Positions 796 to 21,094 of a stretch of 21,239 nt of DNA are shown piece after piece. The stretch spans positions 1 to 21,239 of the forward strand of contig JAJYLN010000027.1 of NCBI GenBank assembly GCA_021787665.1, written 5' to 3'. The stretch comes from a bacterium. GTDB lineage: Bacteria; JAMCPX01. The notes under the pieces are model-generated. The model had not been told where the DNA came from. It did no database searches and worked only from the letters and a program-made list of their open reading frames with translations. How positions within the stretch are numbered: the stretch's first letter is position 1; the number at the start of each line of letters is the position of its first letter. The translations under genes were made by a program, and so were the position numbers.

Positions 796-1476
796 CTACC
801 CTCTTTTTCTTTTCTTCTCTATCTCAAGATCCTGTTCCGCCTTCAGTAACTGGAACAGGAGGTCAGATAAGTCGGACGGCAGCGTCGTAGGCTTTTCCCC
901 TGTTAAGAGGGCGTGATAGTATATCTGCGATGACTTTTCCATCAGCTCGAGACTCCTGAATGCCCTTCCGATGCTCGTGCCGATGCTCAAGGCGCCATGG
1001 TTCTGGAGGATATAGCAGTTGCATCTGTTGGATAGTTTCTCTCTGACGTTGTCCACGAGCTGGTCCGAACCGGATAGTGCATAGGGGACCACGTCGGTGA
1101 CATTGCCGATGCTCATGACGACTTCGTCAAACAGCGCGGGTACGGGCCTGCTTATCAGGGCGAAGATGCTCGTGTAGATCGGGTGGGAGTGGATCACCGC
1201 GTTCGCGTCAGGTCTATGCCTGTATACGGCGATGTGCAGCCCGGTCTCCTTCGAGGGGCTATACTTCCCCTCGATCGTTGTAAGTCCGAAGTCCACGACG
1301 CATATGTCGTCCGGCGCAAGCTCCCCGTAGTCCCTGTTCGAGGGCGTTATCACAAGGGCCTCCTCTCCCTCGACCCGGATGGAAACGTTCCCACCCGTGC
1401 CAACGGTATAGCCCTTCGACAGCATCATCTGGCCGTGCCTCAGGACTTCCTGCTTATAGCGTTCGTAGTTGCTCAT
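796..1476 (-). CDS. class II aldolase/adducin family protein (fuculose-phosphate aldolase-like)
   Basis: A 226-residue protein, the usual length for the FucA/AraD class II aldolase family. These Zn enzymes cleave or form ketose-1-phosphates (or epimerise ribulose-5-P). Visible motifs are TGGNVSIR (27-34), SNRDY (46-50), the SxE region with the catalytic Glu at about 77, the zinc ligands in HSHP (H96, H98), and H160 in LQNHGA. I chose the ATG at 1476 because AAGGAG lies 5 nt upstream; the longer in-frame extension to 1563 has no family homology or SD. It is the last gene of the leftward metabolic run, 183 bp after the aminotransferase gene. Together with the FGGY kinase it suggests retro-aldol cleavage of a phosphorylated ketose to DHAP plus an aldehyde. 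The exact substrate cannot be read from the sequence. Confidence 0.9.
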   Translation of the reverse strand: MSNYERYKQEVLRHGQMMLSKGYTVGTGGNVSIRVEGEEALVITPSNRDYGELAPDDICVVDFGLTTIEGKYSPSKETGLHIAVYRHRPDANAVIHSHPIYTSIFALISRPVPALFDEVVMSIGNVTDVVPYALSGSDQLVDNVREKLSNRCNCYILQNHGALSIGTSIGRAFRSLELMEKSSQIYYHALLTGEKPTTLPSDLSDLLFQLLKAEQDLEIEKKRKRG

Positions 1477-1557
1477 GTAATCTCCTTGTTTTTTTTGTCG
1501 TCTTTCAACCCCGCACTGGTACGTCTGCGTTATCCCTCTTGCATAAAAGGGCGGGGT

Positions 1558-1576
1558 ACCCAAGCGGGGCTTGGGT
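1558..1576 (-). promoter_or_regulatory. stem-loop in aldolase leader
   Basis: A perfect 8-bp inverted repeat, ACCCAAGC-GGG-GCTTGGGT, lies in the 183-bp gap between the aminotransferase and aldolase genes. Read leftward it is followed some 12 nt later by a short T-run (CCCTTTTATG), so it could be a weak terminator, attenuator or mRNA-processing hairpin that sets aldolase expression apart from the upstream genes. The hairpin is seen; its role is inferred. Confidence 0.45.
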
Positions 1577-1659
1577 CGGGAGTTGCATCCTGCGACAGCA
1601 TCTCCTGAATCTTAAAATCATAACGCCCAGGGTCCATCGTATCGTAAGAGGAGGATTTG

Positions 1660-3072
1660 TTATTCCGGTATCAGCGAAAGCGTGTATTCCCACGCCTTCA
1701 GGGTTCTGTCCAAAGCCTCCGGATCATGCTGCATGCACGTGTACATCCTCGATCCTGCGAGCGTGAATATGCCCTGATCGATCATCACCATCTGGTAGTC
1801 CTGCGCGGTGTGCCGCCGCGTCATGATCTCGTTGAGCGGATCCGGGTGGTTAACGCTCACCGCGAGCATGCCCGTGGTCTCATAGTGGATGATCGGCCCG
1901 AAATTGAACGCGAAGAACGGCAGGTCCTTCCTCGTCGAGAACAGGTCGTTCATCTGCTCCGTCAGCCTGTCCGCAAAGTCTGCCGCCTTCCGGACGGCGT
2001 CATGCTCCTCCATGAGCCTGAGTGCGTAATAACAGGCCGCCGTGGATATCGGGTTCGCCGACAGGGTTCCGCCGATGTATGCCTTCTGGCCGATACTGCC
2101 CACGCCGGAGCATAGCGCCATGATGTCCTTCCTGCCGCCGATGCCGCCGGCTGCCGGGTATCCGTGCGCAATGATCTTCCCGAAAACGACGATGTCCGCA
2201 TCGACGTTGAAGTATTTTTGCGCGCCACCCATCCCGAGTCTGAAGCCCGTCACGACCTCGTCGAAGATCAGCAGGGCACGGTACTCGTCGCAGAGCTTCC
2301 GTATCGTCCTGTTCCATCCCGGGTGCACCGGGTGGGTGCCGGATTCGCCGCCCACCGGCTCCACGATCACCGCGGCGATGCCGCCCCGATCTCTGTTTTC
2401 CTCGAATGCCTTTCGGAGGCCTTCGAAGTCATTGGGAAACACGTCCACGAGGCCGTTGAAGCAGTCGGACGGTATGCCCGCGGCCTCAAGCGGTCCTGCA
2501 CCGGGCACGTGGAGCGAGTACACGACCTGGTCGCTCCATCCGTGGTAGCTGCCACCGATCTTGATTATCTTGTTTTTCTGGGTGTAGATCCGAGCTATCC
2601 TCAGCGCTGCCATCACGCTCTCAGTCCCGGACTGCAGGAACCTTACCATCTCGACGTTCGGCACGTGCTTGATGATCTCCTGTGCAGCGAGTATCTCGTA
2701 CTCCGAGGTACAGCCTGTCGATGGCCCCTTCTCTCTGATGAGTTCAATGATTTTGTCGTCAAGAGGGGCGTAGTGGTGCCCGAGTATAATCGGTGCCCCG
2801 CTCATCAGGTAATCCACGTACTCGTTGCCGTCTATGTCCCACATGCGGTAGCCCTTTGCCCTGTCCATGGTAATGGGGAAGGGTTTCTCGAGGCTGAGGT
2901 TATGCTCAACGCCCCCCGGGATGATCTCCCTGGCCTTCGTATACAAGGCTGCTGATCTGCTGTGCCGGGCGTAGTACCGCTGCCTGACCTTTGACAGGGC
3001 CTCCTCCGGTATGGGGTGGATCGGTAGGTCAACGATGCGCTTGAGTCTGTCGATAATCTCCTGATATTCCAT
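1660..3072 (-). CDS. class III PLP aminotransferase (glutamate-1-semialdehyde aminomutase-like)
   Basis: A 470-residue fold-type I PLP enzyme of the class III/HemL family. Visible motifs include DIDGNEYVDYL (79-89), QSGTES (147-152, phosphate-binding), SYHGW (175-179, ring stacking), VEPVGGE (237-243), DEVVTGFR with the pyridine-N Asp at 271, and FGKIIAHGYP with the PLP-binding Lys at 299. The chain is about 40 residues longer than typical GSA-AM, mostly as an N-terminal extension. A weak SD (AAAGGAT) precedes the ATG, and only 2 bp separate it from the kinase stop codon. A heme-biosynthesis role is unlikely in this context; transfer of an amino group to or from an aldehyde or keto acid made by the neighbouring kinase and aldolase is more plausible. 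Family is firm, substrate unknown. Confidence 0.92.
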   Translation of the reverse strand: MEYQEIIDRLKRIVDLPIHPIPEEALSKVRQRYYARHSRSAALYTKAREIIPGGVEHNLSLEKPFPITMDRAKGYRMWDIDGNEYVDYLMSGAPIILGHHYAPLDDKIIELIREKGPSTGCTSEYEILAAQEIIKHVPNVEMVRFLQSGTESVMAALRIARIYTQKNKIIKIGGSYHGWSDQVVYSLHVPGAGPLEAAGIPSDCFNGLVDVFPNDFEGLRKAFEENRDRGGIAAVIVEPVGGESGTHPVHPGWNRTIRKLCDEYRALLIFDEVVTGFRLGMGGAQKYFNVDADIVVFGKIIAHGYPAAGGIGGRKDIMALCSGVGSIGQKAYIGGTLSANPISTAACYYALRLMEEHDAVRKAADFADRLTEQMNDLFSTRKDLPFFAFNFGPIIHYETTGMLAVSVNHPDPLNEIMTRRHTAQDYQMVMIDQGIFTLAGSRMYTCMQHDPEALDRTLKAWEYTLSLIPE

Positions 3073-3074
3073 GT

Positions 3075-4667
3075 TTATGTATTCATCCTTTTGAACAACT
3101 TTTTGTTCTGTTCGTAAAGCTCTTTAAACACCGAAAAGCTCCTGTCGTACATAGTTTTGTATTCGTGCCGCGGCTTGAATATCTTTTCGACCGGTACCAG
3201 CGATTTTGCCTCTTTGAACGATCCAATCAATCCAAGTCCCACGGCGCAGATAATCGCCGCGCCGTTCGTGCCCGCGTTCTGTGCATTTTTTATGGTCTCG
3301 ATGTGTCTGCCCGTGACGTCTGCCATGATCTGGCACCATACTGCGGACCGTGCGCCGCCGCCCACAAAGCGGACGCTTTCCCGGTACGGGATCTTTTTCT
3401 CGATGGCCTCGAGCAGCCACCGCTTGTGGAACGCCACGCCCTCGAGAACCGAGCGGATCATCTGGCGCTTGCCTGTGGTAAGACCCAGGTTAAAGAACAT
3501 GCCGCGTGCATACGGGTCCTCCCGGGGCGATCTGTTCCCGTGAAGCCAGGGCGTGAATATGAGTCCTCCGGCCCCGGGCGGGGTCTGTTCTACGCGCTCG
3601 TTGAGGAACTCGTACAGGCTATCGTACTCCCCTGTCCTGTCCACGGTGTGTTTCGTGCCGAGGTACACGCCGATCTCGTCAAGAGCGAGGTGGTCGCGCA
3701 CCCATTGTAGGCATAGGCCCGAGGTCTCCTGCTCCGCGGTATACACGTACTCGCCCGGTATCGCACCGAGTATGGATGCGACAAAGTTGCGGATGTCGAC
3801 GGTCCGCCTGTCGATGTTCGATGCGACCCAGCCGGACGTCCCAACATAGATGTGCGTATCGTACAGATCGAGTGCGCCGGCACCGACCGCTGTGAGGAAG
3901 GTATCTCCTCCGCCGCCGAATACCGGTATGTTCGGCATCAGCCCCATCTCGTCTGCGGCCTGCCGGGTCAGCCCGCCGATGATATCCGTCGACCGTATGA
4001 CCGGCGGCAGATGGTCCATATCGACATCGAAGATTCTGCACAGCTCCTTTGACCATCTGAGTCTGCCCGGGCGCGAATCGAAAACCCAGGTGAGGTGTGC
4101 AGAGTCGTAGGTCATGCCATACCTGCCGGTGCACCGGAGCGTGAGGTAGTCTTTCACGTCGAGCCATTTGTAGACCTTGCAGAACAGCTCCGGCTCGTTG
4201 TCCTTTACCCAGTGGTATTTCCAGAGCGGGTCTTTCGGGGTTGCCGCAAGGCCGCCGGTTATAAGGAGAGACTTCAGTCCGATCCACGCGTTCCAGTTTT
4301 CGATCCGCGGGAACCCGTGGTACAGGTACTTCGTGATCTGAGCCGTGGACCGCTGGTCCATGTATATCATGGGGTTACGCAGGGCAGTGCCCTGTCTGTC
4401 GACGACAACGGAGCCCTGCATCTGAGAGGAGAAGGCGATGCCTCTGATGAGGGATGGGTCCAGGGAAGTCCGTTTGAGCAGCTCGCGGGTCGAACCACAG
4501 ACAGCACCCCACCAGTCGTCTGCCCTCTGCTCGGCTCCGCCGTCTCCGGTCGTATAGAGCGGGTATTCCGCGAGGTACGAGTCCACGAGCTCGATCCGCT
4601 CAGTTATCCTGTAGAGGCACGACTTATTGCCCGTGGTACCGAGGTCGTACGCGAGGATGAAAGGCAT
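3075..4667 (-). CDS. FGGY-family carbohydrate kinase (xylulokinase-like)
   Basis: A 530-residue sugar kinase of the FGGY family, which phosphorylates pentoses, polyols and related sugars with ATP. The N-terminal phosphate-1 motif is YDLGTTGNKS (7-16). The central GGGGDTF (251-257) holds the candidate catalytic Asp255. The C-terminal adenosine region FVGGGARSAVWCQIMAD resembles XylB. Length matches the family (480-550). Its SD (AAGGAG, 4682-4687) overlaps the stop codon of the upstream 52-residue gene, and its own stop lies 2 bp before the aminotransferase start, so all three are probably co-translated. The inferred job is to activate the substrate that the class II aldolase then cleaves. Calling it true xylulokinase would be over-interpretation, because no xylose isomerase is nearby. 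Confidence 0.9.
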   Translation of the reverse strand: MPFILAYDLGTTGNKSCLYRITERIELVDSYLAEYPLYTTGDGGAEQRADDWWGAVCGSTRELLKRTSLDPSLIRGIAFSSQMQGSVVVDRQGTALRNPMIYMDQRSTAQITKYLYHGFPRIENWNAWIGLKSLLITGGLAATPKDPLWKYHWVKDNEPELFCKVYKWLDVKDYLTLRCTGRYGMTYDSAHLTWVFDSRPGRLRWSKELCRIFDVDMDHLPPVIRSTDIIGGLTRQAADEMGLMPNIPVFGGGGDTFLTAVGAGALDLYDTHIYVGTSGWVASNIDRRTVDIRNFVASILGAIPGEYVYTAEQETSGLCLQWVRDHLALDEIGVYLGTKHTVDRTGEYDSLYEFLNERVEQTPPGAGGLIFTPWLHGNRSPREDPYARGMFFNLGLTTGKRQMIRSVLEGVAFHKRWLLEAIEKKIPYRESVRFVGGGARSAVWCQIMADVTGRHIETIKNAQNAGTNGAAIICAVGLGLIGSFKEAKSLVPVEKIFKPRHEYKTMYDRSFSVFKELYEQNKKLFKRMNT

Positions 4668-4685
4668 GGTACCGGGGCGTGCTCC

Positions 4686-4844
4686 TTAGTTCCCCTTAGC
4701 AGGGGGGAATTTCGGGAAGCCACCCTGATGATGCAGGGCAGGGGCTTTTCCCTTTGTTTTGCTGACCTGCGCTCTGTTCCTGTCCTGTGCCTTTGCCTTC
4801 AGGTTTCTCATGATCAGCGTCTTGGGCAGGTTCTTGAACCGCAT
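4686..4844 (-). CDS. 52-residue highly basic small protein
   Basis: A short ORF, ATG at 4844 to TAA at 4686, with a GGGAGG ribosome site 4 nt upstream (4849-4854). The product starts MRFKNLPKTLIMRNL and ends FPPAKGN. It has about 13 Lys/Arg and one acidic residue, and no signal peptide or membrane segment. Its stop codon overlaps the SD of the sugar-kinase gene 18 bp downstream, which suggests translational coupling. I do not recognise a family. It could be a small nucleic-acid-binding or regulatory peptide, or a leader ORF whose translation tunes kinase expression. The evidence is position plus a good SD; homology is untested. Confidence 0.5.
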   Translation of the reverse strand: MRFKNLPKTLIMRNLKAKAQDRNRAQVSKTKGKAPALHHQGGFPKFPPAKGN

Positions 4845-4922
4845 GTAACCTCCCTACCATAATACATGGGTAACAACGTAAGTCAATGGTATAGTTGGAT
4901 GTACGTGACGGAAGATGGGGCT

Positions 4923-5450
4923 TTATATCCTCTTCAGTGCCTGCTCGTAAACCCTGAGGTCGCTGTCCGAGAACAGGACGAACCGTACCAGCGACAGGCC
5001 CCTGGTTGCCCCGATGAATTCGGCCACCGTGCTGAGCGCGATCGTGGCGGCCCTGTCGATGGGGTAGCCGTACGCGCCAGTGCTTATTGAGGGGAAGGCG
5101 ATGCTCGTGAGCCCCTTTTTCACCGCGAGATCGAGACTCGCCCGGTATGCCCCTGCGAGCAGGCCGTCTTCGCCGTGCCTGCCGTCGCGATATACCGGGC
5201 CCACGGCATGGATGACGTACCGTGTTGCCAGGCTGCCGCCTGTCGTGATGACCGCGCTCCCGGTGGGACACCCCTTGATCTTTCTGCACTCTTCCATGAT
5301 CATCGGCCCCCCGGCGCTGTGGATGGCGCCGTCTACCCCTCCCCCCCCGGCGAGCCGGGAGTTGGCCGCATTTACTATCGCATCGGTCTTCTCGAGGGTG
5401 ATATCTCCCCTCACGAGGGATATCGTCACGCCATCTCTGACTACTTCCAT
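4923..5450 (-). CDS. macro domain protein (O-acetyl-ADP-ribose deacetylase-like)
   Basis: A 175-residue single macro domain, the size of E. coli YmdB. These proteins bind ADP-ribose and hydrolyse O-acetyl-ADP-ribose or remove mono-ADP-ribose from proteins. GDITLEKTDAIVNAAN (15-30) has the substrate-contacting Asn27. GGGGVDGAIH (35-44) carries the catalytic-loop Asp40. SISTGAYGYP (121-130) is the phosphate-binding loop. The ATG at 5450 has a strong SD (AAGGAGG) 5 nt upstream. It sits in the metabolic run, 70 bp after the ComA-like gene and 78 bp before the 52-residue ORF, so co-transcription is likely. A metabolic role for it there is not obvious; scavenging or regulatory removal of ADP-ribose is inferred. 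Confidence 0.93.
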   Translation of the reverse strand: MEVVRDGVTISLVRGDITLEKTDAIVNAANSRLAGGGGVDGAIHSAGGPMIMEECRKIKGCPTGSAVITTGGSLATRYVIHAVGPVYRDGRHGEDGLLAGAYRASLDLAVKKGLTSIAFPSISTGAYGYPIDRAATIALSTVAEFIGATRGLSLVRFVLFSDSDLRVYEQALKRI

Positions 5451-5520
5451 ACGTACCTCCTTATCGGCGAAATAGATCCCTCATCGTTTTTTGGGCCAGG
5501 GGCATTCGCTGTTTCTGCGA

Positions 5521-6357
5521 TCAGTCCTTGTACGTTACGACCCTCCCCCAAAGGCTCATCGTGCCCCAGATCCCGGACCGCAGGCACTGGAGCTGGACTA
5601 TCTGGCTATGGTCCACGAAGACGTTGACCTCTGCACCGTAGTTTTTGATGTACCACGCGAAGACCTCCGGGTCGGCTGCCTCGAACATCACGCGCTCGAT
5701 GCCCAGCGCATTGACGAACTTCGGAGGGACGTCCGTGCGCCAGGTCTTCACATTCTCGGTGATGCCCTCGGATTCAATCATGATCATGTATGCCCCGGCA
5801 TCCAGGAACCTTTTCGCCTGCTCGATCGCATGTTCCGGGTCGCGCGTGCCTTCTGCCTCGAGCTCCTCCGCGGTGGTCGCTCCACCGGCGCCGAACTGTA
5901 TGCCAATCTCAGGTTTAGGCCTGAGTCCGGCCTTCTTCACCTTCTCGATGATCCTGAGCCAGTCGTCCGTAGGGATCGTTATGAACCCGCTCGAGACCTC
6001 GATGATATCGAACCCGAGGTCCTTGCACTCCTCTATGTATTTCGCTACCGCATCAGGCCCCTGCGTGACCACGTATTCCATGAATCCGCCGGTATCGACC
6101 TTGACGTCGTACCGGTGGCACGTATCGATCAGATCCCTCACGGCCTTCTTCGGCATGAGACTGAACGACCCGCCAGCGAACTTCAGGATATCCACGTAGT
6201 TGCCCATCGTTTCGAGGACGTCCTCGAGGTAGCGCTTGCCCATGGGTGTGTAGTACGGCCCCCTGATCTCTGTCACGGCCGTCTTCCGCGGTTTGCCCGG
6301 CAGATCGTTCATCCTCAAAAAATGGAACCCTCTTTCGCTATCACCCGTGTTCTGCAT
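5521..6357 (-). CDS. phosphosulfolactate synthase (ComA/HSA32) family protein
   Basis: A 278-residue TIM-barrel protein resembling ComA, which adds sulfite to phosphoenolpyruvate to give phosphosulfolactate in coenzyme M synthesis, and plant HSA32. Recognisable blocks are YLEDVLETMGNYVDILKFAGG (a Lys in the KFGWGTS-equivalent strand, ~59), VKVDTGGFMEYV (86-96), KDLGFDIIEVSSGF (112-125), FLDAGAYMIMIE (184-195) and VFVDHSQIVQLQCLR (246-260). The start is the ATG at 6357. It has AAAGGAGG 8 nt upstream, inside the end of the PrpD-family gene, whose stop is 1 bp away; the two are surely coupled. Ours is longer than archaeal ComA (~250), with extra residues at both ends. Family assignment is from memory of motifs. 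The reaction (sulfite addition, its reverse, or another PEP/enol chemistry) is open. Confidence 0.82.
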   Translation of the reverse strand: MQNTGDSERGFHFLRMNDLPGKPRKTAVTEIRGPYYTPMGKRYLEDVLETMGNYVDILKFAGGSFSLMPKKAVRDLIDTCHRYDVKVDTGGFMEYVVTQGPDAVAKYIEECKDLGFDIIEVSSGFITIPTDDWLRIIEKVKKAGLRPKPEIGIQFGAGGATTAEELEAEGTRDPEHAIEQAKRFLDAGAYMIMIESEGITENVKTWRTDVPPKFVNALGIERVMFEAADPEVFAWYIKNYGAEVNVFVDHSQIVQLQCLRSGIWGTMSLWGRVVTYKD

Positions 6358-6358
6358 G

Positions 6359-7735
6359 TTATAATCCTCCTTTCTTTGTGACCTTCGAGAGCAGACCCAT
6401 GAGGTCCCTGACCTTGATGGACTCAAGCCTGCCTATCGCATCGATTATCTCTTTCTGGAGCGATGCTGATGCATGCCCCTGAGAAAGCCTTATGAACTTC
6501 TCCGAGACGGTCTCCCATCGCATCGGCTTCGTATGGAAGCCCTCGTAGTCTGTTTTCTCTCTGGTGAGCGTGGTGCCGTTCCTGAGCGTGATCGTGACCC
6601 TGCACGACATCGTCCCGGGAAAGAGCTTGCTGTACTTCTCGGACGGTGCCACCCGTACCTTTCTCATAAGGGCCTGAATGTCGCCACGGTGTATGCGCTC
6701 CGGGACGTATTGCTCCGGCATGACCTCCCGGTCCAGCAGGGCCGCCGAAACGAGATACGGTATGCTGTGGTCTGCCTGTTCCTTTGTTTCGACCAGGTAC
6801 TTGTTACCTTCCTCGCCGCCGCCGATGATGTTGTACGCCACATCGAAGGTCTCGACCTCTATCGATTCCACGTCGCCGGCAGTGAGGCCGTGCTCCTGCA
6901 CGAGCTCCAGGGTCCCTTCGAGGGTGGATTGGGAGTGTATCTCCGCATTGTAGCGCTTCACGATCGTCATGGTGACCCGCTCGAGGTTTTCTTTCGACCA
7001 ATCGATCGCAAACCTGCCGGCGATAGCATCCATGAACCCCTTGTTTCCCTCGAACACCTCCGGTGGTCCGGTGATGCCGCGCATGGCGAGGAACACGGCG
7101 TGTGTGGCGCAGAAAGCCGTGTTTGGGTACGCAAGGCCCTTCCAGCTCGAGAGAGTACCGGTGCGTGTGACCCTGAGTGCGTTGAATGCTGTGCCGCTTA
7201 TCGCTATAGCGTTGGCCGTTTTCTCCCGGTCCAGCCCCAGCGCCCTCGCAACGCCGGCAGCGACCGCGTATGCGCCCTGCGTGGTGTGGTCGAACCCCTT
7301 TGCCCGGACCGGCGCCACGTCGCTCAGTCTGCACTGGACCTGGTATGCAACCGCCAGGGAAACGAGCAGGGCCTTCCCGTCTTCTCCTGCGTACTCTGTT
7401 GCAGCAAGCACCGCGCCTAAGTTATCGCTCGGATGGCACGTCTCCCCCTTTGCGAGATAGCTATCGTTGAAGTCGAGATACCTGACGAGCGCACTGTTGT
7501 AAAGGGCCGCCCTGTCCGGGGATGTGGCACCTCCGCCTATGGTCGTACACACCGGTCTGCCCCCGAAGTCCGCGTTCTGCTCTTCGATGGCTCCAATCGG
7601 TCCTGCGTCCATTGCGCCGACGGCACACCCCAGTGCATCGAGGGCCCGTATCTTCAGCGCTGTGACTGCGGACCCGGAAAGCTCCCTGTACGATGCCCGG
7701 ATAACGAAGCCTGATAGCTCCTCAGCATACGTCAT
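6359..7735 (-). CDS. MmgE/PrpD family protein
   Basis: A 458-residue member of the MmgE/PrpD superfamily, which includes 2-methylcitrate dehydratase, cis-aconitate decarboxylase and iminodisuccinate epimerase; they act on small di- and tricarboxylates. Typical features are the mostly helical N-terminal half, YLDFNDSY (86-93) and the CHPSDN block (100-105), with a hot-dog-like C-terminal lid domain that includes the RVTITLRNG strand. The ATG at 7735 has AAGGAG 5 nt upstream. It appears to be the first gene of the leftward metabolic run. No prpB or prpC is present, so propionate metabolism by the methylcitrate cycle is not supported; it more likely dehydrates, isomerises or decarboxylates an intermediate specific to this operon. 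Confidence 0.9.
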   Translation of the reverse strand: MTYAEELSGFVIRASYRELSGSAVTALKIRALDALGCAVGAMDAGPIGAIEEQNADFGGRPVCTTIGGGATSPDRAALYNSALVRYLDFNDSYLAKGETCHPSDNLGAVLAATEYAGEDGKALLVSLAVAYQVQCRLSDVAPVRAKGFDHTTQGAYAVAAGVARALGLDREKTANAIAISGTAFNALRVTRTGTLSSWKGLAYPNTAFCATHAVFLAMRGITGPPEVFEGNKGFMDAIAGRFAIDWSKENLERVTMTIVKRYNAEIHSQSTLEGTLELVQEHGLTAGDVESIEVETFDVAYNIIGGGEEGNKYLVETKEQADHSIPYLVSAALLDREVMPEQYVPERIHRGDIQALMRKVRVAPSEKYSKLFPGTMSCRVTITLRNGTTLTREKTDYEGFHTKPMRWETVSEKFIRLSQGHASASLQKEIIDAIGRLESIKVRDLMGLLSKVTKKGGL

Positions 7736-11096: not shown

Positions 11097-11127
11097 TTGA
11101 CAAACCGCCGGTGAATATAAATACTAT
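11097..11127 (+). promoter_or_regulatory. putative sigma70 promoter of the chaperone operon
   Basis: A perfect -35 hexamer TTGACA lies at 11097-11102. Candidate -10 boxes are AATACT (11120-11125, 17-bp spacer) and TACTAT (11122-11127, 19-bp spacer), inside an AT-rich stretch. Either would place the transcription start at about 11131-11135, on or next to the ATG at 11134, which has no Shine-Dalgarno. The transcript may therefore be leaderless or nearly so. Confidence 0.4.
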
Positions 11128-11133
11128 GACGAT

Positions 11134-12273
11134 ATGGAAGAAGTGCCCAAACTAACGAAGAACGCGAAGAGCATACCTGGCCTGACCGAGCAGGAGAAGC
11201 AGGTACTCTCGATGATAGACGGCATGACATCCATTTCTGAGATTGCGAGGATAACGGGCTTCGGGCTGTCCTCCGTCAAAAAGATCATAGAAAAGCTGGC
11301 AGGCAGCGGCGCGGTCGGGCGCCAAAACAGCAACTCCGCTCAGCACGTACCACAGGATCAATCTATGCGGGAGCTCGTCCTTAGCTACGAGAATGCGGAT
11401 CCCTTTACCATGCTCGGTGTACCGGAGGACGCAGACCTGGGCCGTATAAAAGATGCGTACTTCGAAAAAACAAAGATGTTCCATCCGGACAGCCCTTACG
11501 CACGATCGGTGTCTCCGGAAGACAGACGTTTGCTGACTGACCTCTATAAGAAGATTCAGCAGGCATACGAGACGTTGAAGGCCAGTGCACCGCCCGGGGC
11601 CGGCCGGACCGACGCGCAGCCGACTAATCCCGGCATGCCCATGGTCGGTAAGGGTATAGCGAGCAAGCCTGCCGGGGCCGTTCCACGGCAGCCCGCGATG
11701 ACCGGCCCGCCTGCGGCAAAGGGCAGGATAGACGATGGGATAATACAGAACGTGAAGAAAGCGGAGACCTATTACAAGATGGGCGAAGCGGCCCTCTTCA
11801 AGAGCGACTATTCCGGCGCATTTCTCAACTTCAAGCTCGCCAGCTCGTATAATCCCTACAAGAAAGAGTATGTCAGCAAGATGAACGATGCCGAAGAGCA
11901 CATGAAGAGGGACCGGTACGAGGATTTGCTGAAGAAGGCGGACATCAGCATCGAGATCAATAAGCCGGACGATGCCCTGGGCTTTCTCAGGGCTGCGCGG
12001 GAGCTTGGCGATGATCCGAAGTTTGTTGCCTATAAGATTGCGCTCGTCATGTACGACTTCAATCATTCCTTGAAGGAGGCGGCGAAGTACTGCCAAGAGG
12101 CGATCGTGCGCGATCCGAAGAACCCGGACTATCACCTCCTGCTGGCAAGGATATATAAGAAGGCCGGACTCCTGAAGAGCTCGATGGTCGAGTATGAGCA
12201 GCTCATGCTGCTCGGTGTGAAGACGGACGACATCAGGGCAGAAGTGAGGCTGGTGAAGGGCATGGTGAAATAG
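11134..12273 (+). CDS. J-domain protein with N-terminal winged-helix and C-terminal TPR regions
   Basis: A 379-residue multidomain co-chaperone. Residues ~15-62 look like a small winged-helix domain ([22 protein letters not shown]...). Residues ~88-150 are a J domain: [21 protein letters not shown], then the essential HPD at 117-119, then [13 protein letters not shown] Pro/Gly-rich linker (150-200) precedes helical TPR-type repeats (~205-365). J domains stimulate Hsp70 ATPase, and an Hsp70 gene begins 1 bp after this stop codon, so they are presumably partners; the TPRs would bind a client. The Gly/Phe and zinc-finger regions of classical DnaJ are absent, so this is a specialised (class III-type) J protein. 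There is no SD; see the upstream promoter entry. Confidence 0.85.
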
Positions 12274-12274
12274 T

Positions 12275-13852
12275 ATGGGCAAAACAATCGGCATAGACCT
12301 CGGCACCACGAATACCTGCGTTGCGGCTATGTTGAGCGGAAAGCCGTTCGTGATACCGTCGTCCACGGGCAACAGGCTCATACCGAGCTACCTCGCGGTC
12401 ACCCCGGACGAGAAGCTGCTCGTCGGCGTCAGGGCGAAGCGGCAGTCCATTACCAACCCGAAGGGTACCGTGTTCGCTGCAAAGCGGCTCATCGGGAGGA
12501 GGTACGACTCCGAGGAAGTGAAGATCGCGAAAGAGAAGATGCCGTACGAGATCGTGTCCGGACCTCATGGCGATGTGCGGGTCGTGTGTGGCGGCAGGCA
12601 GTTCAGCGTGCCGGAGATAAGCGCCGCGATCCTGCTCGAAGCTAAGAGCATGGCGGAGAAGTTTCTCGAGGACGACATCGAGGGAGCGTGCATAACAGTA
12701 CCGGCATATTTTAACGAAAGCCAGAGGCAGGCGACCATAGATGCAGCGACCATTGCGGGGCTGAAGGTCCTCAGGATCATCAACGAGCCGACGTCCTCTG
12801 CCATCGCGTACGCAAGCAAGAGGGGTAGGAAAAGCGAGCTCATAGCAGTGTACGACCTCGGGGGCGGGACATTCGACATATCGATCCTTGAGCTCGGGGA
12901 AGGGGTGTACGAGGTACTGTCGACGGCCGGCGACACCTACCTGGGCGGGCAGGACATCGACGGGGTCATTATGAACCATCTCGTCGAGGAGTTCTTGAGG
13001 ACCAACGGCGTTGATCTGAGGCAGGACATGATGGCCATACAGAGGATGAGGGATGCTGTGGAGCAGGCAAAGATCGATCTGTCGGTGCAGTCCGAGGTGA
13101 CCATATCGCTGCCATTCCTTACCGAGACGACGCATGGCGCCGTCCATTACACCCATGTCCTGACGCGCGGCAAGCTGGAAGAGCTGGCCTCCGCCATGAT
13201 AGAGAGGACCATGGAGATATGCAGGAGCGCTATCGATAGGGCGCACATCGCGAAAGAGAACATCAGCGAGGTAATCCTGGTGGGAGGACAGACGAGATCA
13301 CCGCTCGTCATACGCAGGGTCACGGAGTTTTTCGGCAAACAGCCGAACCGGAGCATCAATCCGGACGAGGTCGTTGCCGAGGGTGCCTCGATACACGCAT
13401 ACAATATCGTATCGCCGCTGCCGTCAAATATCCTTGTCGACATCACGGCACTGTCGCTCGGCATCCAGACCAAGGGAGGCTTCTTCACGGAGATTGTCCC
13501 CCGGAATACCGCGATTCCGGTTACCCGGAAGCGCAAGTTTACCACGACCTACGACAACCAGGAAGCCGTGAGGATCTCGGTTTACCAGGGTAACGAGAAG
13601 CTCACGAAGGACACGGAGCTTCTCGGGGAGTTCGTGCTGAGCGGGATACGGCTCGCAAAGAAGGGCATTCCGAACATAGAGGTGAGCTTCGATATGAATG
13701 GCGAGGGCATTCTCCAGGTGACCGCGAAGGACGCGGATCTCGGGTCGGAGCAGAGCGTGGTGCTCGAGGCAAAGAGCGGTCTGACCAATGACGAGATAGC
13801 GTCCATGCGAAGCAGGATGACCTCTCTGGAGCTAGAGTTGAAAGATCAATGA
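12275..13852 (+). CDS. DnaK/Hsp70-family chaperone lacking the helical lid
   Basis: A 525-residue Hsp70. The nucleotide-binding domain (1-~385) is intact: IGIDLGTTNTCV (5-16), catalytic Lys70, INEPTSSAIAYA (169-180) with Glu171, YDLGGGTFD (193-201), ILVGGQTRSP (334-343). The interdomain linker is VDITALSLGIQ (388-398). The beta-sandwich substrate-binding domain continues to about 505, and the protein stops soon after. Housekeeping DnaK (~640 residues) has a further helical lid and EEVD/GKK-type tail that are missing here, so client trapping must differ. The start at 12275 is 1 bp after the J-protein stop, and its own TGA overlaps the next ATG (ATGA). No grpE is nearby. It is a dedicated Hsp70, not the housekeeping copy. 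Confidence 0.95.
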   Translation: MGKTIGIDLGTTNTCVAAMLSGKPFVIPSSTGNRLIPSYLAVTPDEKLLVGVRAKRQSITNPKGTVFAAKRLIGRRYDSEEVKIAKEKMPYEIVSGPHGDVRVVCGGRQFSVPEISAAILLEAKSMAEKFLEDDIEGACITVPAYFNESQRQATIDAATIAGLKVLRIINEPTSSAIAYASKRGRKSELIAVYDLGGGTFDISILELGEGVYEVLSTAGDTYLGGQDIDGVIMNHLVEEFLRTNGVDLRQDMMAIQRMRDAVEQAKIDLSVQSEVTISLPFLTETTHGAVHYTHVLTRGKLEELASAMIERTMEICRSAIDRAHIAKENISEVILVGGQTRSPLVIRRVTEFFGKQPNRSINPDEVVAEGASIHAYNIVSPLPSNILVDITALSLGIQTKGGFFTEIVPRNTAIPVTRKRKFTTTYDNQEAVRISVYQGNEKLTKDTELLGEFVLSGIRLAKKGIPNIEVSFDMNGEGILQVTAKDADLGSEQSVVLEAKSGLTNDEIASMRSRMTSLELELKDQ

Positions 13853-14424
13853 GTACAGGTGAGATAGAAAAATTATTGGAAGACGGACTCGAGCTGTACG
13901 GCCTGGGCAAAACGGAGGAGGCGATCGCCGTGTGGCGCAAGGTACTGGAGATCGAGCCAAACAACCAGAAGGCCGTCGACTACATAGAATCCGCCGGGTT
14001 CAGCAGACAGAGCGAGATTGCCGTGGACATGCATCCGAAGGACGCGGAGTTCATCAATATAAACTATATCAGGGACCTCCTGAAGGCCCGCAGGTTCGAG
14101 CTTGCGTACGAGTTCCTCGAGCACCTCGCACAGAAGGGCACCACGTTCAACAAACAGTTGGTAGCGTACCTCTTCATGGTGAAGGCCCAGCTCATCAGGG
14201 GCTACTACGAAGAGCTGGACGGCTTCAAGAAGGTCCCGAAGCTGAACATCAGCAGTCATGACATCGTCAAGTACAACCTGGGCAAGGCCGACGGCTATAT
14301 CGTGTCGCGGGTAGACGGCTACTCGACAGCGGAGGAAGTCATTCAGATGTGCAGCGGCATCGACCGGTTCGATGCCATGAAGAGACTCAGCAAGCTCGCG
14401 AGGCTCGGGGTGATAGGGTTCTGA
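13849..14424 (+). CDS. TPR-containing protein with C-terminal winged-helix-like domain
   Basis: A 191-residue protein whose ATG overlaps the Hsp70 stop (ATGA), a mark of translational coupling. Residues ~1-50 form a TPR-like hairpin (GLELYGLGKTEEAIAVWRKVLEIEPNN), and helices continue through ~120. Residues ~128-191 resemble the N-terminal domain of the J protein in this operon. Both have a PKL lead-in, an xDGYST/IDGMTS turn, an acidic E[VI] helix, and a KLAx[14 protein letters not shown] ending. No enzymatic motif and no signal peptide are seen, so it is probably cytoplasmic. It likely acts as an adaptor in the chaperone or signalling complex; no precise function is known. Confidence 0.7.
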   Translation: MSTGEIEKLLEDGLELYGLGKTEEAIAVWRKVLEIEPNNQKAVDYIESAGFSRQSEIAVDMHPKDAEFININYIRDLLKARRFELAYEFLEHLAQKGTTFNKQLVAYLFMVKAQLIRGYYEELDGFKKVPKLNISSHDIVKYNLGKADGYIVSRVDGYSTAEEVIQMCSGIDRFDAMKRLSKLARLGVIGF

Positions 14425-14425
14425 T

Positions 14426-15460
14426 ATGGCTACGGTGGGTATGGATCTCCTGAAAAAGATGAAGACCCTGCTCGCCTTCGTCGACAGCGGCATCGTCATC
14501 GCCGACTCGACATACCGAATCGTGTATGTCAACCCGTCGGCATTGAAGTTCATCGGGGGAACGGTAGAGGAGCTTGTCGGCAAACCGATAAAGGACATCT
14601 TCTCAGCGGACAACTGGAACCGGATCACCGAGTGCATCGAGAAGGTGAAACACGACGGCGAGCCTGTGCGAATCCATGTGGAGGAAAAAAAGAGGTTCCT
14701 GAAGCTCGGCGTGTCGGCCATCATGGTCGCGGAGAAGTACACGGGCGTTATTCTCAACATGCTCGATGTGACTGTAGAGGAGCACCTGCTCATACAGAGG
14801 TCCGAGCTAACCTCGATGTTGATAAACGAGCTCAAGGACCCCATCTATACCCTGTACGGGCTCCTGCACAACGGGAAGATTCTTAAGGATGGGGATGCGC
14901 AGGCCGATCGGGCGAAGGAGTCGAGCAGGCTCCTTATGAACGCGCTCGATACCCTGCTCGACATAAACCAGCTCACGGCAGGCGTCCTCAATCTGGAGCT
15001 CCAGGACCTCGATGTCGCCGCGATCATACGATCCTGTGTCAAGAGTATCGAACCCTTTGCCAGCAAACAGGGGCTCGCGATCTACAGCTCCTATCGGCAC
15101 ACGCGCTCCATCGCAAAGATCGACAGGGAGAAATTCACCAAGGGACTGATAAACCTGTTGAGCCTTGCCGTAAAGGAGGGGCGCGAGAAGGACGTCCTCT
15201 GCGTGGACGTGGCCAACTATGGGGAGGACGGCAAGGCGAACCTGATCCTGACCATCGCGAACACCGGGAGCGGCACCGCTGCGTCCGTCTTCGAGAACAT
15301 AACGGACGAGCAGACTTTTACGCATCTGAAAGAAGAAGAGAAGTTGTACGTCGAGGTGCTCACGGCGAAGAGGCTCATCCAGGCCCACGCCGGCCGGCTG
15401 GACGTGATCAGCGAGCTGGGCATTGGGTCAAGCTATATCGTGTCGCTTCCGGTCGTGTAG
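14426..15460 (+). CDS. PAS-domain protein with degenerate histidine-kinase module (pseudokinase)
   Basis: 344 residues, starting 1 bp after the previous stop. An N-terminal PAS domain (~10-120) includes ADSTYRIVYVNPSALKFIG and a PAC-like end. It is followed by a region aligned to the HisKA and HATPase_c domains of sensor kinases. The H-box reads INELKDP (133-139), so the phosphoacceptor His is Asn134. The N-box is LINLLSLAVK, with Leu247 in place of the Mg-binding Asn. The G1 DxGxG is NTGSG (279-283). The G2 glycine loop is replaced by EEEKLYVEVLTAKRL. The C-terminal GRLDVISELGIGSSYIVSLP still matches the kinase fold. ATP-driven autophosphorylation therefore looks lost. It probably works as a ligand-sensing scaffold with the chaperones. 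Its 3' end overlaps the convergent acyltransferase gene by 33 bp. Confidence 0.85.
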   Translation: MATVGMDLLKKMKTLLAFVDSGIVIADSTYRIVYVNPSALKFIGGTVEELVGKPIKDIFSADNWNRITECIEKVKHDGEPVRIHVEEKKRFLKLGVSAIMVAEKYTGVILNMLDVTVEEHLLIQRSELTSMLINELKDPIYTLYGLLHNGKILKDGDAQADRAKESSRLLMNALDTLLDINQLTAGVLNLELQDLDVAAIIRSCVKSIEPFASKQGLAIYSSYRHTRSIAKIDREKFTKGLINLLSLAVKEGREKDVLCVDVANYGEDGKANLILTIANTGSGTAASVFENITDEQTFTHLKEEEKLYVEVLTAKRLIQAHAGRLDVISELGIGSSYIVSLPVV

Positions 15461-16389: not shown

Positions 16390-19300
16390 TCAACTCAAAA
16401 CATCTACGAGTTCAGCAACAACTTTAAAATCATCACTGCCTACATTTTCTAAAACAATGTTATGAAATGCTTTATTATCCGGAGAAAGGATTATGCGTTT
16501 GTGTCGCCACTGATCGGTATCAACATTTTCTTTTTCACTCTTGTATCGCTTAACCGTGAACTTTTGATTTGTTTCAGGGTCGGCAACCAAACGAGATTCA
16601 ACGATAACGACTAATCCATTTCGCGAACCACCACGATCAAAACGGAAGATACAAAAACTTCCGTCGGGAATAGTTGGTTCCATAGATTTCCCGACAACCT
16701 GAGCAATAAACATGTCTTTATTCAGACGCTTATTATCAACTTTCTTCCAGCCAAGGATTTCAACGTGTTCTTCCTTGCCAAAGTCCGTTGCAACCGCCCG
16801 TAATGAATATACAGGTAAAAACGCCGTATATTTAAAATTGTCTTTCATATCTGTGTCAGGGATCAAATCTTTAAGAAATGAATTGCTCTCTCTTTGTCGA
16901 TCATCTTCTTCGTAGCTGACGGGTTGATTAAGGCGGTTATATACACGTTTCAGCAGGTAATCTTTTACAATATCGGCAAACGCTTTATCATCCATAATTT
17001 TATTAAAGATATCCTGATTCTGATCCATCCTACCTACAATCTTGTCAACAAACACATCTTCAAAGCCGAGTTTGAAATTATCGATGGTATTTACTTTAGC
17101 CTGCATACCAAGTTTCTTGTCTAAAACCATTTCTTCTTCAATCTGGTCAAAAAACAGCTTGTCGGCTTCTGTAAAATCTGTTCCAAAACGATCATTTAAC
17201 ACCTTTATTATCTCAGAAAGTCTTGCATACTCTTCCTTATCTTTTCTTGTCCCTGCCTCAGAAATCGGTTTTATTACCGCATCAGAATCCTTTTGTAGGG
17301 AAATTCCACCTTCGGCAATTTTCTGTAGGCGATAATACTCAAGAGTAACTTCATCTCCGATACGGTATCGCTCATTCCGATCAGGTCCGGGCAGTTTCTT
17401 CAGCAGCAACCGAGAATAAGTATAAAATTTCTCCAATCCAATGTCTTGAAAAGGTATGATTTGCGTAAGAAAGGCATACAATCTTACAAAAACACCGAGC
17501 GTATTGGTAAAATCTTCTCTATATTCTTCTTTTTCTATAGCTTTATATCTTTCCACCGTCACATCTACAAGAGCATTTAATTGTGCATGCTCCCGCGTCG
17601 TGTGCAGCGCTTTGATCCTAAAAAATACCGTGCAAAACATGTCGACATCAGATTGCTGGACAATCTGGAAAGAATCCAACTTGTGTTTGAGATCATACAG
17701 CTTATTGGGGTCTGTTGTATCAGTTAATTGTGTCTGCTCGTAGTAGGGCTGAAAAGCCGCTAAAATATCATACCGCTTATTCACAAAATCCAGAACAAAA
17801 GTATCATCTTTCCCCGGACATGTTCTGTTCAGGCGGCTCAAGGTCTGAACAGCCCTGACTCCATCAAGCCTCTTGTCTACATACATAGTGTGCAAAAGGG
17901 GCTCGTCATAGCCGGTCTGATATTTCTCTGCAACCAGGAGAATTTGATATTCGGATGTTGCAAATTTTCCCGGCAGCTCTTTTTCGCCAAACCCGTTCAT
18001 GCCTACCTCAGTATATTCCGGAGGTACACCATCCAGCAAAACCTTTCCGGAAAAGGCAACAAGAGCTTTTATATCATTATAGTTTTTTTCTTTGAGATAG
18101 CGGTCAAACTCGTGTTTGTATCTCACGACATGCTCGCGTGAAGCCGTAACCACCATTGCTTTTGCTTTGCCGCCGATCTTCTTCATTGTCACCTGTCTGA
18201 AATGTTCAATCATCACCTCGGTTTTCTGAGCCAGATTATACGGGTGAAGCGTCATAAAGCGAGCAATTGCAACTGCTGCCTTTTTCTTGTTCATATTCGG
18301 ATCATCTTCTATCTTCTTGGATAACTGGAAGAAGGTCTGGTAGGTCGTATAGTTCCGTAAAACATCAAGAATAAAGCCTTCCTCAATTGCCTGACGCATA
18401 GAATACAGGTGGAATGGCTGAGGGATGCCGGAAAAATCCTTTTGTCCAAAATATTCAAGTGTTTTTGCTTTTGGAGTCGCTGTAAACCCAAAGAAGCTTA
18501 AATTAGGTTGAGGCCCGCGTTTGAGCATTGATTCGCGGATCTCGTCTTCAACATCCTCTTCTCCATCAGTTTCGACACGTTCAGGTTTTGCATCTGTCAC
18601 TGAAAGTACTGCCTGCATTTTCTTTGTTGTTTCTCCAGTCTGTGAGCTATGTGCTTCGTCCACAATAACAGCATATGTCCTCTTGGGTATATTTTTTATC
18701 TTATCTAAAACAAAAGGAAATTTTTGCAGGGTTGTTATGACAATATTTGTCCCGCCGATGAGCGCTTGAGCCAATTGCGCTGAATCCTTATCGATTTTTT
18801 CTACGACACCCGGCTTATGTTCAAACTGATAAATAGTATCCTGTAATTGTTTATCAAGCACAATCCTGTCTGTTATAATCATCACTGAATCGAAAATGCG
18901 TTTATCTGCCTCGTCGTGGAGATCTGCAAGGTGATAAGCCAGCCACGCAATCGAGTTGCTTTTGCCGCTGCCGGCACTGTGCTGTATCAGATAATTTTTC
19001 CTCGTTTTGTTTTTGCGTGCATCATCGACGAGCTTTCTTACAACATCCAACTGGTGAAAGCGGGGAAAGAGCATAGTTTCTATCTTTATTGTCTTACCTT
19101 CGAAGGTTTTCTCTTTCACCTCAAGATGAAGAAATCTTGCCAATATCTCCATCCAGCTATCTTTTATCAAAATCTTTTCCCATAAATATGCTGTCTTATG
19201 GCCATTAGGATTCGGCGGATTTCCGGCACCTTTATTAAAGCCAAGATTGAAAGGCAAATATTTTGTCTGACTCCCCTGCAGACGGGTAGTCATGTAGACT

Positions 19301-19890
19301 TCGTCTGTATCAACTGCAAAATGCACAAGTGCACGTTTCTTAAATCGGAATAAAGGTTCCTGCTCATCGCGGTCATATTTATATTGCCGTTTGGCGTCAT
19401 CCACATCCTGACCGGTAAATGGATTCTTCAGTTCAATTGTGGCCACCGGCAACCCATTTACCGATAAAAACATATCAATAGAGCTTTCATCTTTTGTGCT
19501 GTAGTGGACCTGCCGATAAACAGTTAAGATATTCTTATCGTACAACCTCTGGGTTTCCGGGTTTAGTTTGCTGACCGGTTTAAAATAGGCGAGCTTAATA
19601 TGCTTTCCATAATCGGTTATTCCATGCCGTAAACAATCCAGCATACCCCGGTTATCCAATTCCTGATTCAGACGATATAAAAACTTCTTTTCTGCTTCAG
19701 CCCCGTGAATAGCAACCAAACTATCCCACGTGTCCTTCTGAGTGTCTTTAATGAATTTAAATAAGACTGTTTTATCAAGTGCAAGAATCCGGTCAAAATC
19801 CGCCGGATCCCCTTTAACATAACCACCATGCTCAATAAGACTCTGTTCAATAGCATCTTCAAAAGCTTTTTCATTGATTATACTGCTCAC
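16390..19890 (-). CDS. hsdR: type I restriction endonuclease subunit R with C-terminal S24 (LexA/UmuD-like) domain
   Basis: A 1166-residue motor and nuclease subunit of a type I restriction enzyme, which translocates and cleaves foreign DNA. The N-terminal PD-(D/E)xK nuclease shows D139 and E153-L-K155. The SF2 helicase shows Walker A AGSGKS (306-311), DEAH (411-414), TATP (470-473) and QTLSRLNR (682-689). The helical C-terminal region (~720-1010) is typical of HsdR. From ~1020 comes an extra domain: LPVYSLRAVATDFG, then GKSMEPTIPDGSF with Ser1069, then FTVKRYKSE with Lys1114, the Ser/Lys dyad of S24 peptidases. GTG start at 19890 with AAGGAG 8 nt upstream (19899-19904); it overlaps the hsdS end by 20 bp. 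AT-rich relative to the genes at left. Confidence 0.95.
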   Translation of the reverse strand: MSSIINEKAFEDAIEQSLIEHGGYVKGDPADFDRILALDKTVLFKFIKDTQKDTWDSLVAIHGAEAEKKFLYRLNQELDNRGMLDCLRHGITDYGKHIKLAYFKPVSKLNPETQRLYDKNILTVYRQVHYSTKDESSIDMFLSVNGLPVATIELKNPFTGQDVDDAKRQYKYDRDEQEPLFRFKKRALVHFAVDTDEVYMTTRLQGSQTKYLPFNLGFNKGAGNPPNPNGHKTAYLWEKILIKDSWMEILARFLHLEVKEKTFEGKTIKIETMLFPRFHQLDVVRKLVDDARKNKTRKNYLIQHSAGSGKSNSIAWLAYHLADLHDEADKRIFDSVMIITDRIVLDKQLQDTIYQFEHKPGVVEKIDKDSAQLAQALIGGTNIVITTLQKFPFVLDKIKNIPKRTYAVIVDEAHSSQTGETTKKMQAVLSVTDAKPERVETDGEEDVEDEIRESMLKRGPQPNLSFFGFTATPKAKTLEYFGQKDFSGIPQPFHLYSMRQAIEEGFILDVLRNYTTYQTFFQLSKKIEDDPNMNKKKAAVAIARFMTLHPYNLAQKTEVMIEHFRQVTMKKIGGKAKAMVVTASREHVVRYKHEFDRYLKEKNYNDIKALVAFSGKVLLDGVPPEYTEVGMNGFGEKELPGKFATSEYQILLVAEKYQTGYDEPLLHTMYVDKRLDGVRAVQTLSRLNRTCPGKDDTFVLDFVNKRYDILAAFQPYYEQTQLTDTTDPNKLYDLKHKLDSFQIVQQSDVDMFCTVFFRIKALHTTREHAQLNALVDVTVERYKAIEKEEYREDFTNTLGVFVRLYAFLTQIIPFQDIGLEKFYTYSRLLLKKLPGPDRNERYRIGDEVTLEYYRLQKIAEGGISLQKDSDAVIKPISEAGTRKDKEEYARLSEIIKVLNDRFGTDFTEADKLFFDQIEEEMVLDKKLGMQAKVNTIDNFKLGFEDVFVDKIVGRMDQNQDIFNKIMDDKAFADIVKDYLLKRVYNRLNQPVSYEEDDRQRESNSFLKDLIPDTDMKDNFKYTAFLPVYSLRAVATDFGKEEHVEILGWKKVDNKRLNKDMFIAQVVGKSMEPTIPDGSFCIFRFDRGGSRNGLVVIVESRLVADPETNQKFTVKRYKSEKENVDTDQWRHKRIILSPDNKAFHNIVLENVGSDDFKVVAELVDVLS

Positions 19891-21094
19891 TTCGCATACT
19901 CCTTACGTCAATCTTACCTGTCACAACCTCCGAGATTAATGCTGTTCGATATTCTTTTAATAGATCAATAACTTTTTGTTCTTTCATTACTCGTGCGCTA
20001 ATCTGTGCAGTTTTGTCATCAAGGAAATCAACTATCCGATATTGTTCGCTTCTATCAGGTATCACAAAAATTACGTCACGTAATTTCTCACCATAAATCA
20101 CATTTATCGTAGTAGCATCACTGATATACTTGACGCTTTCATAAAATGATTGGGCATCTTGAATGAAATATTGAGTGAACCTATTTAGAATGATATTTTG
20201 ATTTAATTGTATTCTTATCAAACAAGGATGTAAAACACCTCTATCTTTATTTTTGGGGAAAATTGCACACCTTCCGATCGTTCCTCTTGTAGTTAAAAGA
20301 ATGTCATCTGGAAAAATCTCAAACTCCCTCAGTTCATCAAATTTATCATTGCTTATGTATAAGTCATTTGAATCAAAGTCATTATCAATAACTGAACGTT
20401 GATTATAAATCTTTACATCTGAACCTTGCATATCGGACTGTTTCAATTGACTTCCAAAAGGCCCCGTTTTTAATGAGCCTTTATTACTGATTAAAACATA
20501 TTTTAACTTCCTTATCTGCCAATGTTTCGGTATTTTGCCCAACCATTCAATACCTGTATCTTTCATCTCAACATGCAGGTCGAGGCCTTTGGTGACAGCT
20601 TGATTAATAATAGCAGTACGCTCCTCCTTGAGGAGTTCAATCATCGGTTCTTTCTTGGCAATCAAATCATCAATTTGCTCGGTCTTGCGATCGAGATAAG
20701 TAGCGATGTTTTCTTGCTCTTCGCTATCAGGATTTGGGACAAGCACATTATTTACTTGTTCAACAGATACTGCATTATATGTAGACCCGGTTGCCATTCG
20801 ATTTAATTCGTCTGCTAAACATAGTGTTTTATAATACAAATATTTTTTATGTGAATGTTTTGGCCTTATAGAGCAAAGGCCTCGTCCAATTCCATATGTC
20901 TGGTCAGCAATATTTACGGCACCAACGGGCGCTCTTACAGATAAAAGAACATCATCCTTTTCTGAAAATTTATTCGGATGTTCACACCAAACGCTTGGTA
21001 CGGGATTCATACAAGAAAAATCAGCATTACCCTGAAGAAAAGGTATTCCTTCCTGATCTTGATTGCAGTCTTCAGATTCAGGTGATTGTCCCAT
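19871..21094 (-). CDS. hsdS: type I restriction specificity subunit S, 5'-truncated by an insertion sequence
   Basis: 407 residues from the first in-frame ATG. HsdS recognises the DNA target through two variable domains joined by conserved helices. Here target domain 1 is ~1-120, and conserved helix 1 is SEEQENIATYLDRKTEQI...LLKEERTAIINQAVTKG (124-170). The second half opens with GIEWLGKIPKHWQIRKLKYV (181-200), then target domain 2 and a second helix (RIVDFLDDKTAQI...LLKEYRTALISEVVTGKI). By comparison with that second half, the first must have begun with about 20 residues ending in LKYL. The codons for LKYLDNVI are still present in frame at 21095-21118, but the rest is replaced by the IS end. 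No ATG, GTG or TTG start lies upstream in frame, and the ATG at 21094 has no SD. It is probably a pseudogene or poorly expressed. Confidence 0.85.
   Translation of the reverse strand: MGQSPESEDCNQDQEGIPFLQGNADFSCMNPVPSVWCEHPNKFSEKDDVLLSVRAPVGAVNIADQTYGIGRGLCSIRPKHSHKKYLYYKTLCLADELNRMATGSTYNAVSVEQVNNVLVPNPDSEEQENIATYLDRKTEQIDDLIAKKEPMIELLKEERTAIINQAVTKGLDLHVEMKDTGIEWLGKIPKHWQIRKLKYVLISNKGSLKTGPFGSQLKQSDMQGSDVKIYNQRSVIDNDFDSNDLYISNDKFDELREFEIFPDDILLTTRGTIGRCAIFPKNKDRGVLHPCLIRIQLNQNIILNRFTQYFIQDAQSFYESVKYISDATTINVIYGEKLRDVIFVIPDRSEQYRIVDFLDDKTAQISARVMKEQKVIDLLKEYRTALISEVVTGKIDVRSMRSEQYNQ

Follow-up and report, generated by a model that had tools for sequence, protein, structure and literature searches.

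A four-gene Hsp70, J-domain, TPR and PAS pseudokinase operon that looks like a chaperone-based control system

Hsp70 paralogues are frequent in bacteria, and their assignment to private tasks is poorly understood. One such paralogue is encoded in a 21,239-nucleotide stretch of DNA from a bacterium of the GTDB lineage JAMCPX01 (GenBank assembly GCA_021787665.1, contig JAJYLN010000027.1, positions 1 to 21,239), referred to here as the window, where it stands between a J-domain protein gene on one side and genes for a TPR protein and a PAS protein with a degenerate histidine kinase module on the other. The locus raises the question of whether these four genes, called J, H, T and P below, form one system in which a sensor-like protein governs an Hsp70 machine. 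Because the set is found again in several bacterial lineages, it has the appearance of a genuine chaperone-based control system that has not been described before. The features of the block are the following.

11097-11133, forward strand: candidate sigma-70 promoter, with TTGACA at 11097-11102; the region ends at the start codon of J.
11134-12273, forward strand: J, 379 aa, with a winged helix at about residues 4-66, a J domain at 89-150 (HPD at 117-119), a linker, and TPRs at about 200-358.
12275-13852, forward strand: H, 525 aa, a dedicated Hsp70 with a nucleotide-binding domain and a beta substrate-binding domain but no helical lid.
13849-14424, forward strand: T, 191 aa, a putative adaptor with TPR-like helices at 3-122 and a winged helix at 118-191.
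14426-15460, forward strand: P, 344 aa, a PAS pseudo-histidine-kinase, apparently cytosolic.

The open reading frames and their domain matches confirm what the initial annotation had read from this region, namely four co-directional genes that cover 11134-15460 and are separated by +1, -4 and +1 bp. We searched the nine genomes of the family (G000-G008) for the block. In seven of them the sequence ahead of J is available, and each of the seven has a TTGACA box 28-36 bp before the J start codon and no convincing Shine-Dalgarno sequence between the two; hence the operon seems to have a promoter of its own, and the first (J) message is probably leaderless. Upstream of the operon lies a DUF255/thioredoxin-like gene on the opposite strand; downstream, a DUF374 gene is convergent with it.

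The order J-H-T-P is kept on one contig in six of the nine family genomes (G000, G002, G003, G004, G005 and G006). In G007 and G008 the contig ends inside H, and the pieces present are consistent with the same order; the four-gene block is absent from G001, which is 84% complete. The identities to the window within the family are 49-58% for full-length J, 69-76% for H, 53-66% for T and 60-68% for P. The flanking genes differ among the window, G004 and the group of G002, G003 and G006. Since the order and the spacing are kept while the flanks change, the block persists as a unit, and this conservation rules out a chance gene cluster.

We also searched 386 sampled genomes; the J matches counted outside the family are full-length or nearly so, with E-values of 2e-39 or better. 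The best four candidates per genome were considered for J and the best eight for T, and the counts outside the family are lower bounds. Full-length J is present in at least 11 non-family genomes, with a gene of the H family directly downstream in 9 of the 11, from eight families (G022, G047, G051, G098, G185, G192, G196, G254 and G381), and no H directly 3' of J in the other two (G157 and G295). A T-like protein directly follows H in G022, G035, G135, G254 and G381, and in G182 it overlaps the reading frame that contains H, which is a close H-T linkage. Full-length T is found outside the family in at least four genomes (G022, G047, G192 and G324), and P lies directly downstream in all four with gaps of -7 to +7 bp. 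All four genes occur together in one other phylum (G022). The J-H, H-T and T-P pairs are each recurrent. The initial annotation had named rare adjacency of the homologues in other genomes as a refuting outcome; the idea of a linked gene set survived this test on these counts, and the expectation of recurrent adjacency is fulfilled. In several genomes J is located among hslV, hslU, argB, argD, argF and argG, of which argG and argF were identified by NCBIfam and the other four were read from N-terminal sequences.

A second, paralogous J-H-T copy is present in G000 and G001-G007, and its H has about 525 aa; in G002 it is represented by pieces of H and T at a contig start. Where the contig continues, this copy is followed by argG, mreB, mreC and mreD with no P, and genes reading as mrdA and rodA come after mreD (locus L040, 6962-16638). 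In G022, the only genome sampled from its phylum, a single cluster unites the four genes and leads into argG and an mreB operon (locus L058, 3-10609). In the H tree the two family copies are joined with supports of 95/84, and G022 comes next with 98/93. Taken together, the three gene orders and the single tree are most simply read as descent from an ancestral J-H-T-P-argG-mreBCD cluster that was duplicated, after which the window copy would have kept P and the other copy argG and the mre genes.

This bears on the proposal that the block is a four-gene sensory system. The part of it that stands is that the pairs recur as a system, but P is missing from the paralogous cluster and from several lineages that have J-H or J-H-T; no P adjoins J-H(-T) in G051, G185, G196, G254 and G381. 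Because of these clusters, J-H(-T) is the core and P is accessory, and the window operon represents a single variant within a more widespread chaperone module.

J has a DnaJ domain above the Pfam cut-off (PF00226, 36.1 bits, E 7e-09) with the HPD motif, which is kept in all J relatives that have the J domain, and its matches to TPR_19, TPR_17 and TPR_14 are also above the cut-off. It is a class C J-domain protein, having the HPD but no Gly/Phe-rich or zinc-finger DnaJ region, and otherwise only the winged helix and the TPRs. The genome encodes another J protein (L129, 7588-9066), with a DUF4388 N-terminal domain and TPRs.

The Pfam matches of the N-terminal winged helix of J are weak, and weak matches to sigma-70 region 4, TrmB and MarR were seen for J proteins. 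The domain is recognized through T, whose C-terminal ~75 residues are homologous to the N-terminus of J (hhalign probability 99.0%, E 3.7e-18). The AlphaFold model of T has a mean pLDDT (predicted local distance difference test) of 83.6, with ~90 in the C-terminal winged helix, and residues 118-191 superpose on chain C in structures of the GATOR1-KICSTOR complex (VIA-align Z 9.1, root-mean-square deviation 2.3 A over 71 residues); a Foldseek search with the T model gave no match at E <= 0.001. The domain compositions originally given for both proteins, winged helix, J domain and TPRs for J and TPRs with a winged-helix-like domain for T, are supported by these data. The same winged-helix domain is also found behind a receiver domain (G226) and behind DUF4388 domains (G226 and G360) in other proteins.

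H matches PF00012 (HSP70) with 602.9 bits (E 7e-181). Its alignment to E. coli DnaK starts at residue 1 and reaches DnaK position 515, and H ends 14 residues later. As the protein stops there, just after the beta substrate domain, the helical lid (SBD alpha) is absent, in agreement with its earlier description as a lidless Hsp70, and the orthologues of the family, its paralogues and the H proteins of G022 and G051 have similar lengths. All relatives compared, like H itself, have the DnaK residues at the ATPase positions K70, E171, D194, T199 and D201, at the J-docking positions R167, N170 and T173, and at the linker Asp. H stays under the DnaK equivalog cut-offs (644.6 against 648, and 628.3 against 822.55), and a maximum-likelihood tree places it outside the 100/100 clade of canonical DnaKs, which includes both long DnaKs of the same genome. 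Judged from these comparisons, H belongs to an Hsp70 subfamily separate from these two full-length DnaKs. A lidless Hsp70 is expected to exchange clients fast, which suits short remodelling and not the holding of unfolded chains.

P matches PAS_9 (E 7e-11) and retains a remnant of HATPase_c (E 4e-06). Its H-box reads INELKDPI, against SHELRTPL in the active kinase VicK, so Asn takes the place of the phosphoacceptor His. In the N-box the second Asn has become Leu, in G1 the Asp has become Asn, and G2 is lost; these changes in the H-box, N-box, G1 and G2 are present in seven family genomes. In three genomes of another phylum (G047, G192 and G324) the His position of the H-box is Asp or Glu, and in G022 the H-box is degenerate or lost. 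The catalytic His and the N-box are gone in every P homologue found, which strengthens the initial claim of a dead histidine kinase. On sequence across lineages an active kinase is ruled out, and P is a true pseudokinase. The omega values of P, 0.056 and 0.040, compare with 0.045 and 0.043 for H in two within-genus comparisons in which synonymous sites are unsaturated for these genes; P is under purifying selection as strong as H.

The AlphaFold model of P is poor (pLDDT 62.7), and its fold matches serve only to back the sequence result. NifL, DivL and RetS are among the sequence or fold matches of P, NifL being among the fold matches of this weak model. These proteins resemble P in that a PAS domain and/or a kinase-like fold is used without the conventional kinase reaction, and they act largely by protein binding. 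Their partners, NifA for NifL, the DivK/CckA pathway for DivL and GacS for RetS, differ from those expected for P in not being an Hsp70 system.

Among the closest known chaperone systems is the cyanobacterial DnaK1/DnaJ3/GrpE, a near-precedent for parts of the proposed mechanism, which couples type IV pili to polysaccharide secretion (PMC9239167) and in which DnaK1 works with the TPR-containing DnaJ3 (PMC9239167, PMC12288463). It shares with the window operon a dedicated Hsp70 together with a TPR-containing J protein, and it regulates a surface machine. It differs in being cyanobacterial, with no TPR/winged-helix T or PAS pseudokinase described, and its genes are near grpE and pilBTC, whereas the window operon is one J-H-T-P unit beside the DUF255 and DUF374 genes.

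In myxobacteria, dedicated Hsp70s were said at the outset to affect motility and polysaccharide, and the literature bears this out. The 540-aa StkA of M. xanthus represses exopolysaccharide and has StkB (SCP2) and StkC (PhaE-like) as neighbours (PMC4319316), and SglK is needed for social motility, with the GrpE homologue MXAN_6672 upstream and no neighbouring J gene (PMC8265645, PMC11019930). Both resemble H in being specialised Hsp70 paralogues of small gene clusters, and they affect exopolysaccharide and social motility. In place of J, T and P, however, StkA has SCP2 and PhaE-like neighbours and SglK has GrpE. There is no SCP2 match on the window's contig. In G135, a distant H-T relative, an SCP2-domain gene does precede the genes for an H-like Hsp70 and a T-like protein (L108, 6369-10401). 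We considered identity with the M. xanthus Stk genes through an SCP2 neighbour and rejected it, as this one G135 locus is the only case and the SCP2 genes of G035 are not on the listed Hsp70 contigs.

The M. xanthus genes MXAN_3015 for a J protein and MXAN_3016 for an Hsp70 have consecutive locus tags (PMC8265645, PMC11019930), and deletion of MXAN_3016 lowers sporulation and oxidative resistance with normal swarming (PMC8265645). The pair is a possible J-H orthologue as judged by the adjacent locus tags only; if it is orthologous, the phenotype points away from a pilus role. As the initial annotation supposed, no published description of a J-H-T-P set, or of an operon with an Hsp70 and a PAS pseudokinase, was found in the open-access (PMC) literature.

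How might the four proteins work together? The reading that we tentatively favour, and to which we give somewhat less than an even chance, is a dedicated Hsp70 machine with its own regulator, in which P would switch the access of T and J-H to a client through a conformational change. The HPD of J would stimulate ATP hydrolysis by H, a coupling that is expected since the HPD, R167, N170, T173 and the linker Asp are all kept. Being lidless, H would hold its clients briefly and remodel folded proteins rather than refold denatured ones. J and T, with their homologous winged helices and their TPRs, may be the scaffolds joining client and chaperone, and T would bridge H and P, for which it is a natural candidate because its gene stands between theirs and is found paired with either one elsewhere. 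P, consisting of a PAS domain and a dead kinase body, would bind T, its constant neighbour, and its conformational change would set whether T and J-H engage the client, as phosphorylation-independent PAS regulators such as NifL do. The PAS domain may hold a flavin or another cofactor.

The client would most likely be a cell-envelope machine, either the elongasome, as the ancestral cluster is beside mreBCD, or a type IV pilus or polysaccharide system, by analogy with the cyanobacterial DnaK1/DnaJ3 (PMC9239167). The genome encodes homologues of PilB/T on contigs other than that of the operon, at a site that looks like a pil locus. Co-occurrence with type IV pili was tried as evidence of a link and is uninformative, since PF00437 has matches in 14 of 14 control genomes. 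We infer the J-H coupling, the adaptor role of T, the binding of P to T, the PAS signal and the client. The mechanism first put forward, with a PAS signal gating Hsp70/J remodelling in place of phosphotransfer, is plausible.

Several observations count against a regulator-driven machine of this kind. The core works without P, as P is missing both from the paralogous copy in these genomes and from several of the J-H-T clusters. In two genomes, G047 and G192, T-P and J-H lie on separate contigs. The PAS domain of P has no Cys or His that is shared between lineages, for which reason no ligand is assigned to it. The proximity of mreB and argG may reflect old synteny that carries no functional meaning.

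The clusters that have J-H(-T) and no adjoining P, at argG-mreBCD and in the five genomes named above, would also fit a J-H-T reserved for the folding or assembly of a single client, e.g. an elongasome or pilus component, with P itself a client or a co-expressed passenger and no sensory switch at all. HscA/HscB is the textbook precedent of a dedicated Hsp70/J pair that can serve a single client. But P comes after T inside the four-gene cluster, and it does so too in three genomes whose T-P pair is remote from J-H or in which J-H is unseen, which ties P to T specifically, and P is under strong purifying selection; we regard this explanation as unlikely, though by no means far-fetched. More improbable in our view is that the chaperone is a transcriptional feedback device like HspR-DnaK, with J and T contacting DNA through their winged helices and P adding a signal input. 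The winged-helix fold of T, present by homology in J, the weak sigma-70 region 4, TrmB and MarR matches, and the occurrence of the domain after receiver domains and DUF4388 would all fit such a device. The best match among solved structures, in contrast, is a chain of GATOR1-KICSTOR, a protein assembly, and near the operon there is no operator beyond the TTGACA box, although no systematic search for one was made. P could also keep an unusual enzymatic or nucleotide-binding activity and feed an ordinary two-component output, given that its overall kinase architecture is retained and that some degenerate kinases, e.g. DivL, are known from textbooks to work within phosphorelays. With the His, the N-box Asn, the G1 Asp and G2 all lost, the homologues in other lineages also without the His, and no response regulator gene adjoining P in the window, we consider this very improbable.

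The other genes of the window belong to different subjects. On the reverse strand, 16390-19890 encodes a protein like the R subunit of type I restriction systems (HSDR_N, SWI2/SNF2 and T1R_D3) fused to a C-terminal Peptidase_S24/LexA-like domain; this domain covers residues 1055-1161 and is above the Pfam cut-off, and the fusion is unusual. A specificity-subunit gene (19871-21094) adjoins it. The reverse-strand genes at 796-7735 encode a class II aldolase, a class III aminotransferase, an FGGY kinase, a macro domain, a ComA-like phosphosulfolactate synthase (PF02679, E 1.6e-82) and MmgE/PrpD, and possibly form a pathway for a sulfonate or an unusual acid.

Returning to the regulated Hsp70 machine, a broader claim, which we find possible but on balance doubtful, is that it would represent a new class of signalling, in which a PAS pseudo-histidine-kinase controls a lidless Hsp70/J pair through a TPR/winged-helix adaptor and a remodelling output replaces phosphotransfer; its core would be a non-DnaK Hsp70 subfamily found in several lineages, often near arginine genes and probably hslVU. 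The operon puts a chaperone, a co-chaperone, a putative adaptor and a signal-input-like protein in what appears to be a single transcription unit, and its gene pairs are found again in lineages apart from one another. With only four small proteins involved, the idea that a dead sensor kinase regulates an Hsp70 is open to direct testing, and the operon also gives a lead on the role of at least one family of pseudo-histidine-kinases.

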